A stretch of DNA of 64,000 nucleotides from Streptomyces coeruleorubidus (GTDB lineage Bacteria; Actinomycetota; Actinomycetes; Streptomycetales; Streptomycetaceae). Where the stretch lies: contig NZ_CP118527.1 in the NCBI RefSeq assembly GCF_028885415.1, positions 3,968,001 to 4,032,000 on the forward strand. Direction: 5' to 3'. Numbering within the stretch: position 1 is the stretch's first letter; each line of letters opens with the position of its first letter. Positions 19,324 to 33,067 of the stretch are shown here, one piece after another. A model generated the notes under the pieces. It had not been told where the DNA came from. It was given only the letters and a program-made list of their open reading frames with translations, and did no database searches. The translations under genes and the position numbers were made by a program.

Positions 19324-20004
19324 TCACCGGTAGATGCACAGCTCCTGCTCCGTCGCACCGTGCAGTTCGTAGCGCGTCCCGACGAGCGGGCGGCCCGTGT
19401 AGAGGCGCATCAGTGTCGGCACGTCACCCCAGAACTGCGCGACCGGACGGTCCTCGGTCTCGTCACCGAGGACCAGCGGCGGCGTGCTGCAGGAAAGGAA
19501 CGCGTGCAGGCGCGGGGTGTTCCGTCTGCGGCTGGTCACTTCGAGAAGCGGCAGCGCGTACTCGGTGCTCCTGCCGCCGTAGGCCCCCGGCTCGCCGAAC
19601 GCCTCACGTACGTCGCCGGCGTGCACCCACTCCCCCAGCGCGACCGCGTCCAGCCGACCGTCCTTGTGACCGGCGATGACGTCTCCCGCCTCGGTGAAGC
19701 CTCGCTCCAACTCGTCGAGGACGCGGCTCAGCGGCCAGTCCTCGCGCTCCGCGACATCGGCGGCGTTCGACTCCGGCAGGAACACGCCTTCCTCGAGGCG
19801 GCCCTCGACGATACGGACCAGTGCGGCACCGCAGTGCGCGAGGAGCTGACGCACGGTCCAACCGGGGCAGGCCGTGCGCAGTTCGAACCGCTCCTTGCCG
19901 GAGGCGCGGAGCAGGGGCATCAGGGCGTCGCGCTCGGTGCGGAGCAGCCGACCGGGCAGCTCCGGATCCCGCTCGGACTCCTCGTACGCGGAGTACTCGG
20001 ACAT
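19324..20004 (-). CDS. mycothiol-dependent maleylpyruvate isomerase family protein
   Basis: Predicted 226-residue member of the DinB-like MDMPI family. The N-terminal four-helix bundle has CPGWTVRQLLAHCG with a metal His, and LGEWVHAGDVREAFG with the other Glu/His ligands, followed by a C-terminal sterol-carrier-like domain (GRPLVGTRYELHG). Members use mycothiol as cofactor or act as thiol transferases. It is the last gene of the methyl-cycle operon, 18 bases after the SahH stop, and its presence inside the cluster hints at a thiol-conjugated intermediate. That is inference. Confidence 0.8.
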   Translation of the reverse strand: MSEYSAYEESERDPELPGRLLRTERDALMPLLRASGKERFELRTACPGWTVRQLLAHCGAALVRIVEGRLEEGVFLPESNAADVAEREDWPLSRVLDELERGFTEAGDVIAGHKDGRLDAVALGEWVHAGDVREAFGEPGAYGGRSTEYALPLLEVTSRRRNTPRLHAFLSCSTPPLVLGDETEDRPVAQFWGDVPTLMRLYTGRPLVGTRYELHGATEQELCIYR

Positions 20005-20022
20005 CGTGTCTTCACCGCCTGC

Positions 20023-21444
20023 TCAGTAGCGGTAGTGGTCCGGCTTGTACGGACCCTCGACCTTCACACCGATGTACTCGGCCTGCTCGGGACGGAGCAT
20101 GGTCAGCTTCACACCGAGCGCCTCCAGGTGGAGACGCGCGACCTTCTCGTCCAGGTGCTTGGGCAGCACATACACACCGGTCGGGTACTCGTCGGGCTTG
20201 GTGAACAGCTCGATCTGGGCCAGGGTCTGGTCCGCGAAGCTGTTGGACATCACGAACGACGGGTGACCGGTGGCGTTGCCCAGATTCAGCAGACGGCCCT
20301 CCGACAGCACGATGATCACCTTGCCGTCCGGGAAGGTCCACGTGTGCACCTGCGGCTTCACCTCGTCCTTGACGATCCCCGGGATCCTCGCCAGACCGGC
20401 CATGTCGATCTCGTTGTCGAAGTGACCGATGTTCCCGATGATCGCCTGGTGCTTCATCCTGGCCATGTCGCCGGCCATGATGATGTCCTTGTTACCGGTC
20501 GTGGTGATGAAGATGTCGGCCGTCTCGACGACCTCGTCCAGCGTCGTCACCTGGTAGCCGTCCATCGCCGCCTGCAACGCGCAGATCGGGTCGATCTCGG
20601 TGACGATCACCCGCGCACCCTGACCGCGCAGGGACTCCGCACAGCCCTTGCCCACGTCACCGTAACCGCACACCACCGCCGTCTTACCGCCGATGAGGAC
20701 ATCGGTGGCGCGGTTGATGCCGTCGATCAGCGAGTGACGGCAGCCGTACTTGTTGTCGAACTTCGACTTGGTCACGGCGTCGTTGACATTGATCGCCGGG
20801 AACAGGAGAGTGCCCTCGCGCTGCATCTCGTACAGGCGGTGGACACCGGTCGTGGTCTCCTCCGTCACGCCGCGGATCTGCGCGGCGATCCCGGTCCAGT
20901 CGAGTGAGCTCGCCTCCAGCAGGTCGCGTACGGCCGCGAGTTCCTCGTTGTCCGCCGGGGGCAGCTCACCGGTCTTCCGGTACTCGACGCCCTTGTGGAC
21001 GAGGAGGGTGGCGTCACCGCCGTCGTCCAGGATCATGTTCGGGCCGCCCGTGGGGCTGTCCGGCCAGGTCAGCGCCTGCTCCGTGCACCACCAGTACTCC
21101 TGAAGCGTCTCGCCCTTCCAGGCGAACACCGGGACGCCGGCGGCGGCGATCGCCGCGGCCGCGTGGTCCTGGGTGGAGTAGATGTTGCAGGAGGCCCAGC
21201 GGACCTGGGCGCCCAGGGCGACCAGCGTCTCGATGAGCACGGCCGTCTGCACGGTCATGTGCAGGGAGCCGGTGACGCGAGCGCCGGCCAGCGGCTGCGC
21301 CTCGGCGTACTCCTTGCGGATCGCCATCAGGCCGGGCATCTCGTGCTCGGCGAGGGTGATCTCCTTGCGGCCGAACTCGGCCAGGGACAGGTCGGCGACC
21401 TTGAAGTCCGGCGGGTCGGCGCGGTGGTGGCGGTCAGCGGGCAC
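20023..21444 (-). CDS. ahcY: adenosylhomocysteinase
   Basis: Predicted 473-residue S-adenosylhomocysteine hydrolase, full length, GTG start. It splits SAH, the inhibitory by-product of methylation, to adenosine and homocysteine using NAD. Visible motifs: [16 protein letters not shown], the substrate-site [15 protein letters not shown] fold [17 protein letters not shown] and the C-terminal [10 protein letters not shown]...[10 protein letters not shown]. It overlaps the metF-like gene by 11 bases and is the fifth methyl-cycle enzyme of the operon. Also called sahH. A second, housekeeping copy elsewhere in the genome is expected but cannot be checked here. Confidence 0.95.
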
Positions 21445-31654: not shown

Positions 31655-32481
31655 GACGTGGCCTCGTCTCGGGTCGCGGTGAACAGGAAGGACCGCGGCA
31701 CACGGGGCATCTCACGAGGCGCCACCGGGTAGGGCCAGCGGCCGAAGTCGGCGCCGTCCTCGCCGGGTTGTTTCACCTCGCGCACCGTCCAGCCGCAGGA
31801 GGTGAGCAGCTGCTCGGGCTCCTCGGTGCCGAACAGCCATGGGTTGCCGTCCTCTTCGAGCACCTTCATGAAGGGCCGCGACAGCGGGTTCTCCAGGGCC
31901 GCCTTGCTGATGACGTCGCCGAGGAGGACGGAGCCCGGCGCGCTGTGCTGCCACAGGGTCGTGATCAGGGTGCGCACGGCGTCTTCGGGCAGGAAGAAGA
32001 GCAGGCCCTCGACCACCCACAGCGTGGGCTGTTCCGAACGCCAGCCCGCTTCCTTCAGCGGGCCGGTCCAGTCCTGGGTGAGGTCGACGGCGACGGTGCG
32101 GCGTTCACGGCCGGCCGGCTCCGGCTCGTCGGCGAGCATGGCCGCCTTGGCCTCGAGCAGTGCGGGCCGGTCCAGTTCGTAGACGGTGACGCCCGTCGGC
32201 CAGTCGAGCCGGTAGTAGCGGGTGTCCATACCGGCCGCGAGGAACACGACCTGGCGGATCTCCCGCTCCCCCATCGCGCGGCCGATGGCGCGGTCCAGGT
32301 AGGTGGTGCGGATGGCGAGGAACGGCACGGTGCCTGCGCCCGCGTAACGCTCGAGCAGCGTGAAGCCGACGGTGCCGGCGACCGTGCGGGCGTAGGGATC
32401 GGCGAACAGCCGGTCCTCACGCTCGGTCTCCAGTGCCCGCGCGGCGGCGGTCCACTGGGCAGTGCGGGATACGGCCTCCAC
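31651..32481 (-). CDS. leucine carboxyl methyltransferase-family (TIGR00027-like) methyltransferase
   Basis: Predicted 276-residue enzyme. Signatures are SRTAQWTAAARALETEREDR, LFADPYART, VFLAAGMDTRYYRLDWP and VTVYELDRPALLEAKAAM, matching actinobacterial members of the LCM/PPM fold that methylate carboxyl groups of small molecules. GTG 32481 was chosen for the GAAGGGAGA site upstream. It is coupled to the next methyltransferase by a 4-base overlap. A carboxyl methyl ester on the product or intermediate is a reasonable but unproven guess. Confidence 0.82.
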   Translation of the reverse strand: MEAVSRTAQWTAAARALETEREDRLFADPYARTVAGTVGFTLLERYAGAGTVPFLAIRTTYLDRAIGRAMGEREIRQVVFLAAGMDTRYYRLDWPTGVTVYELDRPALLEAKAAMLADEPEPAGRERRTVAVDLTQDWTGPLKEAGWRSEQPTLWVVEGLLFFLPEDAVRTLITTLWQHSAPGSVLLGDVISKAALENPLSRPFMKVLEEDGNPWLFGTEEPEQLLTSCGWTVREVKQPGEDGADFGRWPYPVAPREMPRVPRSFLFTATRDEATS

Positions 32482-32554
32482 AGGAGGTCTCCCTTCGAGA
32501 AGCGCTTCGGAAGCGGAAGCGGAAGTGGAGCGGGGCGTGTGCGGACGGCCGTGT

Positions 32555-33067
32555 TCAGCGCTCCCGTACACAGGCGACCGGGTCCTCCGCCGCGGACATC
32601 GACGCGGGGGATTCGGCGGAGGAGTCGGCGGGGCGCCGCCGGAAGATGCTGTGCAGGATCATGCTGAACACGGCCGTCCCGTCGGGGGCCACCAGCTCGC
32701 AGCGCGGCTGCACGATGCCGGTGGCGGGATTGCCGAGCGAGGGGCGCGATCCCAGGATCCGGATCCGCGCGGTGAGGATGTCGCCCGGACGCACGGGCCG
32801 GTGGTAGCGGACCTCGTCGATGCCCGGGGATCCGACGCAGGCGCTGTAGGCGAGGAGCCCGTCGACGTAGCGCCGCATGAAGAGCGCCGAGGTGTGGAAG
32901 CCGCTGGCGATCAGCCCTCCGAAGGGCGACTGCTTCGCGAGCTCCGGGTCGGTGTGGAAGGGCTGCGGGTCGAAGCGCCTCGCGAACTCCAGCACCTCCT
33001 CCTCGGTGACGGTGACGGTGCCCAGCTCGTGGATGTCACCGGTGCGGAAGTCCTCGAAGTAGCGCAT
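32555..33067 (-). CDS. MaoC-like hot-dog dehydratase
   Basis: Predicted 170-residue single hot-dog protein. The hydratase 2 motif is FDPQPFHTDPELAKQSPFGG then LIASGFHT, giving the Asp/His catalytic pair. ATG 33067 has AGGGGGCG upstream. It is the first gene of the long minus-strand operon, directly behind the strong-looking promoter at 33111-33154. Its natural role is (R)-specific enoyl-CoA hydration or thioester chemistry; in this cluster it may act on the carrier-bound intermediate. Confidence 0.88.
   Translation of the reverse strand: MRYFEDFRTGDIHELGTVTVTEEEVLEFARRFDPQPFHTDPELAKQSPFGGLIASGFHTSALFMRRYVDGLLAYSACVGSPGIDEVRYHRPVRPGDILTARIRILGSRPSLGNPATGIVQPRCELVAPDGTAVFSMILHSIFRRRPADSSAESPASMSAAEDPVACVRER

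Follow-up and report, generated by a model that had tools for sequence, protein, structure and literature searches.

The window analysed here comprises 64,000 nucleotides (bases 3968001-4032000) of the single-contig 9.41 Mb genome of Streptomyces coeruleorubidus. Its minus strand carries five genes, metK, adoK, metH, metF and sahH (20023-27975, in this order), whose predicted products would together regenerate S-adenosylmethionine (SAM) from S-adenosylhomocysteine (SAH). This set, hereafter the cassette, lies within a longer series of genes on the same strand, in the order MFS transporter, pyridoxal phosphate-dependent (PLP) enzyme, MaoC-like protein, LCM-type methyltransferase, winged-helix methyltransferase, diiron N-oxygenase, amino acid:[carrier protein] ligase, AcpS, carrier protein, the five cassette genes and a gene for a DinB-family protein; the span 19324-33067 covers the series from the DinB-family gene through MaoC. 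The last six genes are listed below, with the position of each second copy in genome coordinates and its amino acid identity to the window copy.

26752-27975, minus: metK, SAM synthetase, second copy; three domains matched; other copy at 1768856-1770052, 82%
25767-26750, minus: adoK, PfkB kinase of the adenosine kinase type, second copy; PDB adenosine kinase 4o1g, 320 bits; other copy at 2677946-2678917, 60%
22300-25770, minus: metH, B12-dependent methionine synthase, second copy, with a GTG start overlapping the kinase stop; five domains matched; other copy at 1988119-1991553, 88%
21434-22303, minus: metF, methylenetetrahydrofolate reductase, second copy; PF02219, 325 bits; other copy at 2607168-2608022
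20023-21444, minus: sahH, S-adenosylhomocysteine hydrolase, second copy; PF05221, 499 bits; other copy at 3885495-3886928, 94%
19324-20004, minus: DinB/mycothiol-dependent-isomerase family protein; PF11716; TIGR03083, 76 bits over a cut-off of 50

With the chosen start codons, the distances between neighbouring genes are 1 base from the carrier protein gene to metK, 1 from metK to adoK, -4 from adoK to metH, -4 from metH to metF, -11 from metF to sahH and 18 from sahH to the DinB-family gene, so that the overlaps and 1-base gaps described for the five genes in the initial annotation are borne out (+1 to -11). We predict from the sequence that the operon genes are co-transcribed. Same-strand genes continue past 33067 with the PLP gene (33148-34320, after a gap of 80 bases) and the MFS gene (34463-35968, after a gap of 142 bases). 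A pattern scan placed a promoter-like match at 33140-33111, immediately ahead of MaoC, and a terminator-like match at 34367-34348, in the MFS/PLP intergenic region, both from a scan with yields near chance level. The promoter match was the only one observed versus 0.6 expected, and eight terminator patterns were observed versus 4.1 expected (standard deviation 2.6), four of them on the operon strand: two overlapping inside the LCM-type gene, one near the end of metK and the MFS/PLP one. We treat these matches as weak signals, though not as discounted ones. No riboswitch was detected with Rfam at gathering thresholds, the sole match in the window being a tRNA at 46655-46728.

The kinase matched the adenosine kinase of Mycobacterium tuberculosis (Rv2202c type) over nearly its full length (query residues 1-323 of 327), and we therefore assign it to the adenosine kinase type and predict that it phosphorylates adenosine. 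For the five cassette proteins, 12 of 19 enzyme motif patterns tried were present, including GHPDK, GAGDQG and GGGAFSG in MetK, GDVGKG in SahH and DVHDIG and GGCCG in MetH; the other seven (two for MetK, two for SahH and three for AdoK) were unmatched as typed.

Copy number, conservation and history of the cassette

A genome search of the 9.4 Mb chromosome returned two matches each for metK, metH, sahH and metF, and a second kinase copy besides four additional kinase matches, all weak. Since all five genes are duplicated elsewhere in the chromosome, the cycle looks dedicated. The initial annotation had set this reading against the case in which the cassette held the only copies of metH, metK and sahH, and that case does not apply.

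Relatives of the ligase were found in 116 of 392 genomes sampled from the genus, the genome of the window included, and the locus was read in the 29 other genomes holding the nearest ligases (genomes are labelled G and loci L; in G223 the ligase is in two pieces). Six of these loci are cut by a contig end (G003, G390, G290, G213, G385 and G237) and 23 are uncut. metK lies beside the carrier-protein genes in all 29 relatives, in some with only its first part before the contig end. MaoC, the carrier protein and the PLP gene were likewise matched in 29 of 29, and the MFS gene in 27 of 29, with no match in G390 and G213. A search of other genomes for the same order next to the carrier-protein module had been proposed initially, and it succeeded: metK, adoK, metH and sahH are present in 23 of 23 uncut loci and metF in 19 of 23, a count in which the split metK and metH of G142 were scored as present. 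Because the gene order is kept in 29 other genomes, a chance arrangement is excluded, and the cassette is inherited together with the biosynthetic genes. Two metH matches were found in 27 of the 30 cluster genomes (own included) versus 40 of the 362 others, although at most two candidates were scored per genome, split genes may be included and genome labels were transferred by hand. A query with the ligase gave 33 named loci, 30 of them titled Streptomyces, the nearest being S. afghaniensis at 96%; these overlap the sampled genomes and do not enter the counts, and L160 (S. roseicoloratus) was excluded from the counts for a scaffold gap in its kinase region. In the cut loci the contig end falls inside cassette genes (metH in L046, L058, L059 and L275; metK in L054 and L277), as would follow if near-identical paralogues misled the assembly. 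In G014, a 1234-residue protein with adenylation, carrier and thioesterase domains (L092:395-4099, plus strand) follows the DinB-family gene.

Each tree was a quick LG+G4 inference from the fetched rows. The 15 housekeeping copies of SahH formed one group (support 97) with no cluster copy inside, and the MetK housekeeping group held no cluster copy and one G012 copy without an assigned context. We also compared the duplicates within the window's genome block by block at the level of bases, omitting gap columns. Between sahH and its paralogue 100 kb away, eight of ten blocks were 98-100% identical and the other two 93% and 69%, with 48 gap columns. The window sahH aligned gap-free to the cluster copies of G364 (89%) and G306 (86%), versus 48-52 gap columns with three housekeeping copies, and in the tree it grouped with the cluster copy of G364. 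On these two grounds we consider it unlikely that sahH, despite its 94% protein identity, arose by a simple recent duplication. Between metH and its paralogue about 2 Mb away, four blocks (around 600 bases) were 99-100% identical, the next five 91-95% and the other 15 71-89%; between species, the same four near-identical blocks reached only about 85-91%. The simplest reading of these patterns suggests gene conversion between the dedicated and the housekeeping copies of sahH and metH.

A full cycle that includes adenosine kinase had been regarded as unusual at the outset, a view that published precedents do not support. In the furaquinocin cluster of Streptomyces sp. Je 1-369, Orf8-Orf12 are a SAM synthase, a carbohydrate kinase, a methionine synthase, a methylenetetrahydrofolate reductase and an adenosylhomocysteinase, which PMC9686526 terms a full set for SAH-to-SAM recycling. 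By gene labels, not by sequences, these are the same five genes in the same order as in the window, again among biosynthetic genes; the host there is a type III polyketide synthase meroterpenoid pathway, whereas here it is a carrier-protein/diiron-oxygenase pathway. The same paper reports that the genes of the furanonaphthoquinone I cluster of S. cinnamonensis (Haagen 2006), whose product class also differs, are arranged identically. Denitratisoma oestradiolicum has second-copy SAM-regeneration genes, adenosine kinase included, near the methyltransferase system emtABCD, with proteins that were more abundant with oestradiol (PMC7448270). This neighbourhood resembles the window in its second copies near a methyltransferase system, but it is catabolic, uses a cobalamin methyltransferase and adds a serine hydroxymethyltransferase. 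The mithramycin and metathramycin clusters hold part of the set, namely the adenosylhomocysteinase mtmH and mtmA, labelled differently by PMC7247220 and PMC8341913. The cassette is of a known kind, and the difference lies in the type of pathway that surrounds it. For the host pathway and cluster we recognised no description in the open-access PMC literature.

Biosynthetic genes and mycothiol-type neighbours

The genes preceding the cassette are the following.

34463-35968, minus: MFS efflux transporter of DHA2/EmrB type, which may form a separate transcript given the terminator-like match behind it; PF07690, 162 bits (longer open reading frame, ORF); TIGR00711, 216 bits, below the cut-off of 230; chosen start ATG 35968
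33148-34320, minus: PLP enzyme of the Cys/Met metabolism family, nearest to methionine gamma-lyase; PF01053, 408 bits; TIGR01328, 373 bits, below the cut-off of 549.7; PDB 5e4z, 333 bits
32555-33067, minus: MaoC-like hydratase/dehydratase; PF01575, 68 bits
31651-32481, minus: LCM/TIGR00027-type SAM methyltransferase, start at 32481 or 32571; PF04072, 157 bits; TIGR00027, 217 bits over a cut-off of 93.6
30581-31654, minus: winged-helix SAM methyltransferase (Rv2258c-like helix-turn-helix plus methyltransferase domain); PF21320, PF13847; PDB TnmJ, 199 bits
29614-30504, minus: AurF-type ferritin-like diiron N-oxygenase; PF11583, 125 bits
28705-29592, minus: SerRS-like amino acid:[carrier protein] ligase; NF005479, 124 bits, below the cut-off of 357; PDB Bll0957, 88 bits
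28266-28703, minus: AcpS-type 4'-phosphopantetheinyl transferase; longer ORF PF01648, 42 bits; TIGR00516, 60.9 bits over 59.8
27977-28219, minus: stand-alone carrier protein with an IDSLSF serine motif; PF00550, 15.5 bits, below the cut-off of 20.8

These family and PDB matches agree with the two methyltransferases, N-oxygenase-type enzyme and carrier-protein module named in the initial annotation. The ligase is related to Bll0957, and one Cys, one Glu and one Cys, which we take to be the zinc ligands of that protein, are aligned identically in it; its substrate is probably glycine. For the diiron protein, the structural model (predicted local distance difference test score, pLDDT, 90) gave seven Foldseek matches at E <= 0.001, all of them AurF/CmlI chains at moderate template-modelling (TM) scores of 0.54-0.65. 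E75, E117, H120, E164, H191, E195 and H198 are invariant in 20 aligned sequences (the window protein and 19 of the 25 located homologues); by their spacing we assign these seven residues as candidate diiron ligands plus the N-oxygenase histidine, following the histidine/ligand pattern of diiron N-oxygenases described in PMC12154687.

As outlined in PMC9967187, which cites He and Ryan 2021, the enteromycin class follows a logic of carrier-bound glycine, diiron oxidation and nitronate O-methylation. The window locus shares with it a diiron oxygenase, a methyltransferase and, as predicted, a carrier-bound amino acid. It differs in the loading step: for glycine in the AKA109 cluster a nonribosomal peptide synthetase is predicted, whereas here a SerRS-like ligase is present. 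The nitronate is putative here. By analogy, the LCM-type enzyme is a possible nitronate O-methyltransferase. A related cluster at L072:8120-17900, which at a guess is possibly enteromycin-type, holds a diiron enzyme, ligase, AcpS, carrier protein, LCM-type methyltransferase, KAS III-like protein, ATP-grasp protein, PLP decarboxylase and acyl-CoA dehydrogenase.

Downstream of the DinB-family gene, the locus probably extends to 11785 and would then include six further genes.

18510-19313, plus: PIG-L family deacetylase/amidase, divergent; PF02585, 95 bits; near the core genes in L066, L068, L069, L158 and L164
16662-18443, minus: asparagine-synthase-like (AsnB-like) amidotransferase; TIGR01536, 314 bits over 267
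15706-16665, minus: PrpF-like isomerase; PF04303, 56 bits; NF033377, 75 bits, below the cut-off of 440
14828-15565, minus: SDR oxidoreductase; best NCBIfam match NF005559, 90 bits, below the cut-off of 215
13198-14778, minus: stand-alone MetRS-like class I ligase; PF09334, 159 bits (longer ORF); PDB 9l8v, 219 bits
11785-13104, minus: MshA-like D-inositol-3-phosphate glycosyltransferase, extra copy; TIGR03449, 535 bits over the curated cut-off of 462.5; aligned to PDB 3c48/3c4q

The six genes run unbroken after the core in L158 and L164, and in other relatives they sometimes follow inserts of about 5 to 28 kb; AsnB, PrpF and SDR were not found at the G037 locus, nor PrpF and SDR at the G361 locus. 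Homologues of the MetRS-like ligase occur in S. oceani, Streptomyces sp. HNM0574, Kitasatospora GP82 and other cluster holders. Its candidacy as a hydrazine synthetase was dropped, Pfam giving tRNA-synt_1g alone. The genome has three MshA-type matches (the third at 610547-611797), and an extra MshA copy was found in eight of eight cluster genomes tested versus none of seven others, with the two rows of G030 resembling adjacent pieces of one gene. By eye, five inositol-phosphate-binding residues of 3c4q (N25, K78, Y110, T134 and R154) are aligned identically in the MshA-like protein, and a mycothiol-type precursor supply belonging to the locus itself is plausible. Lincomycin-like mycothiol chemistry is a further candidate, to which the DinB and PIG-L proteins may belong. 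In G284, a divergent MshC-like (CysRS-like) ligase (L066:1613-2785, minus; 384 bits versus a cut-off of 485) lies beside PIG-L and PLP genes. The conserved flank of the window also carries, at 8590-9525 (plus), a methyltransferase resembling the daptide family model (125 bits, below the cut-off of 175).

On the other side, just outside the operon, a cystathionine beta-synthase-like gene (CBS-like, with PALP and CBS domains; 38504-39740, minus), whose product would use homocysteine, is split over overlapping ORFs in different frames and represents either a decayed gene or a sequencing error. Between it and the operon lies a transposase-like ORF with an integrase core (rve; 37013-37915, plus).

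Role of the cassette

The five genes probably constitute a portable, dedicated SAM-recycling cassette that is built into an orphan biosynthetic operon and serves its methylation. In the working that we propose, the SerRS-like ligase would load a small amino acid, probably glycine, onto the carrier protein, the diiron enzyme would oxidise the nitrogen of the bound amino acid, and the LCM-type and second methyltransferases would act on pathway intermediates. SahH would cleave the inhibitory SAH to adenosine and homocysteine, and adenosine kinase would clear the adenosine and thereby draw the reversible SahH step forward. MetH, with methyl-folate made by MetF, would regenerate methionine, from which MetK would regenerate SAM. 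The amino acid substrate, the nitronate chemistry and the methyltransferase served by the cassette are inferred.

Several observations weigh against this reading. S. oceani (L164), Streptomyces sp. HNM0574 (L158) and G284 (L066) hold the biosynthetic genes and the kinase without adjacent metK, metH, metF and sahH; L164 and L158 have none of these four between the carrier protein and DinB-family genes, and in S. oceani and HNM0574 the four genes were scored at the locus only. G284 holds a full cassette about 250 kb away, which may serve its reduced cluster in trans. (G382 likewise holds a second full cassette elsewhere, its two cassettes sharing sahH at 99.7%.) metF is missing in four of the 23 uncut loci (G073, G037, G320 and G361), and in G142 metK and metH are each split in two pieces, so that this cassette may be broken. 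The MetH tree, from which the G142 pieces were excluded, places the window copy and the G364 copy among housekeeping copies, for which we offer the near-identical tracts shared by the window copy and its paralogue as a possible reason. The promoter-like match before MaoC and the terminator-like match between the MFS and PLP genes blur the limits of the predicted transcript. Finally, glycine is a predicted substrate, and the nitronate O-methyltransferase label of the LCM-type enzyme is putative.

Because the sister clusters retain the kinase without the other four genes, the data do not establish the cycle as essential; of the cassette members, the kinase was retained longest. The heavy methyl supply suggested in the initial annotation thus stands in part: dedicated extra copies are inherited with the pathway, but a strict need is contradicted by L164, L158, L066 and the metF-less loci. 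The kinase tree places L158 and L164 within the full-cassette clusters, which fits a loss of the other four genes, and L066 outside them; all three sit on long branches and their placement is unsure.

The persistence of the kinase on these long branches, and the MshA-like enzyme encoded at the locus of the window, L158 and L164 alike, would also be expected if the PfkB kinase belonged to the pathway itself, perhaps as an inositol kinase that supplies the MshA-like glycosyltransferase, with the other four genes alone as the methyl supply. We consider this unlikely, since the kinase matches the M. tuberculosis adenosine kinase almost end to end, the furaquinocin cassette has a carbohydrate kinase in the same position, and the nesting of L158 and L164 (though not the position of L066), unsure as it is, fits loss. 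Distinctly unlikely is a role of the genes in providing methionine or homocysteine as building blocks for the MetRS-like ligase or the methionine gamma-lyase-like enzyme rather than methyl groups. Both of these enzymes share the locus, but L158 and L164 hold MetRS-like and PLP genes without adjacent metH and metF, and methionine can be made without metK, sahH or adenosine kinase. That relocated housekeeping genes happen to form the genome's only SAM-cycle set here, as the catalytically normal appearance of the enzymes might allow, is ruled out by the second copies of all five genes, and each of 14 other genomes compared also has a SahH copy outside the cluster.

Extending the reading of a dedicated recycling cassette, one may imagine a product in which an enteromycin-like, carrier-bound, N-oxidised and O-methylated glycine unit is joined to a mycothiol-type glucosaminyl-inositol, made with the extra MshA-like enzyme, the PIG-L deacetylase and the MetRS-like ligase in the position that a CysRS-like enzyme takes for mycothiol. 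An unstable N-oxidised intermediate would then be trapped through methylation by the private SAM cycle, whose last member to be lost is adenosine kinase, and the product would belong to an undescribed compound class; we regard this as quite unlikely in its entirety.

In about 30 genomes of the genus (29 relatives and the window's own, six of the loci being cut), the five-gene set accompanies a pathway of an unrelated type and so behaves as a portable helper module. Its natural variants, with five genes, with four or with the kinase alone, offer a ready comparison for the methylation-limiting step, which could help in the engineering of methylated products. Carrier-protein N-oxidation is combined in the host pathway with an extra mycothiol-type glycosyltransferase, and the product merits isolation.

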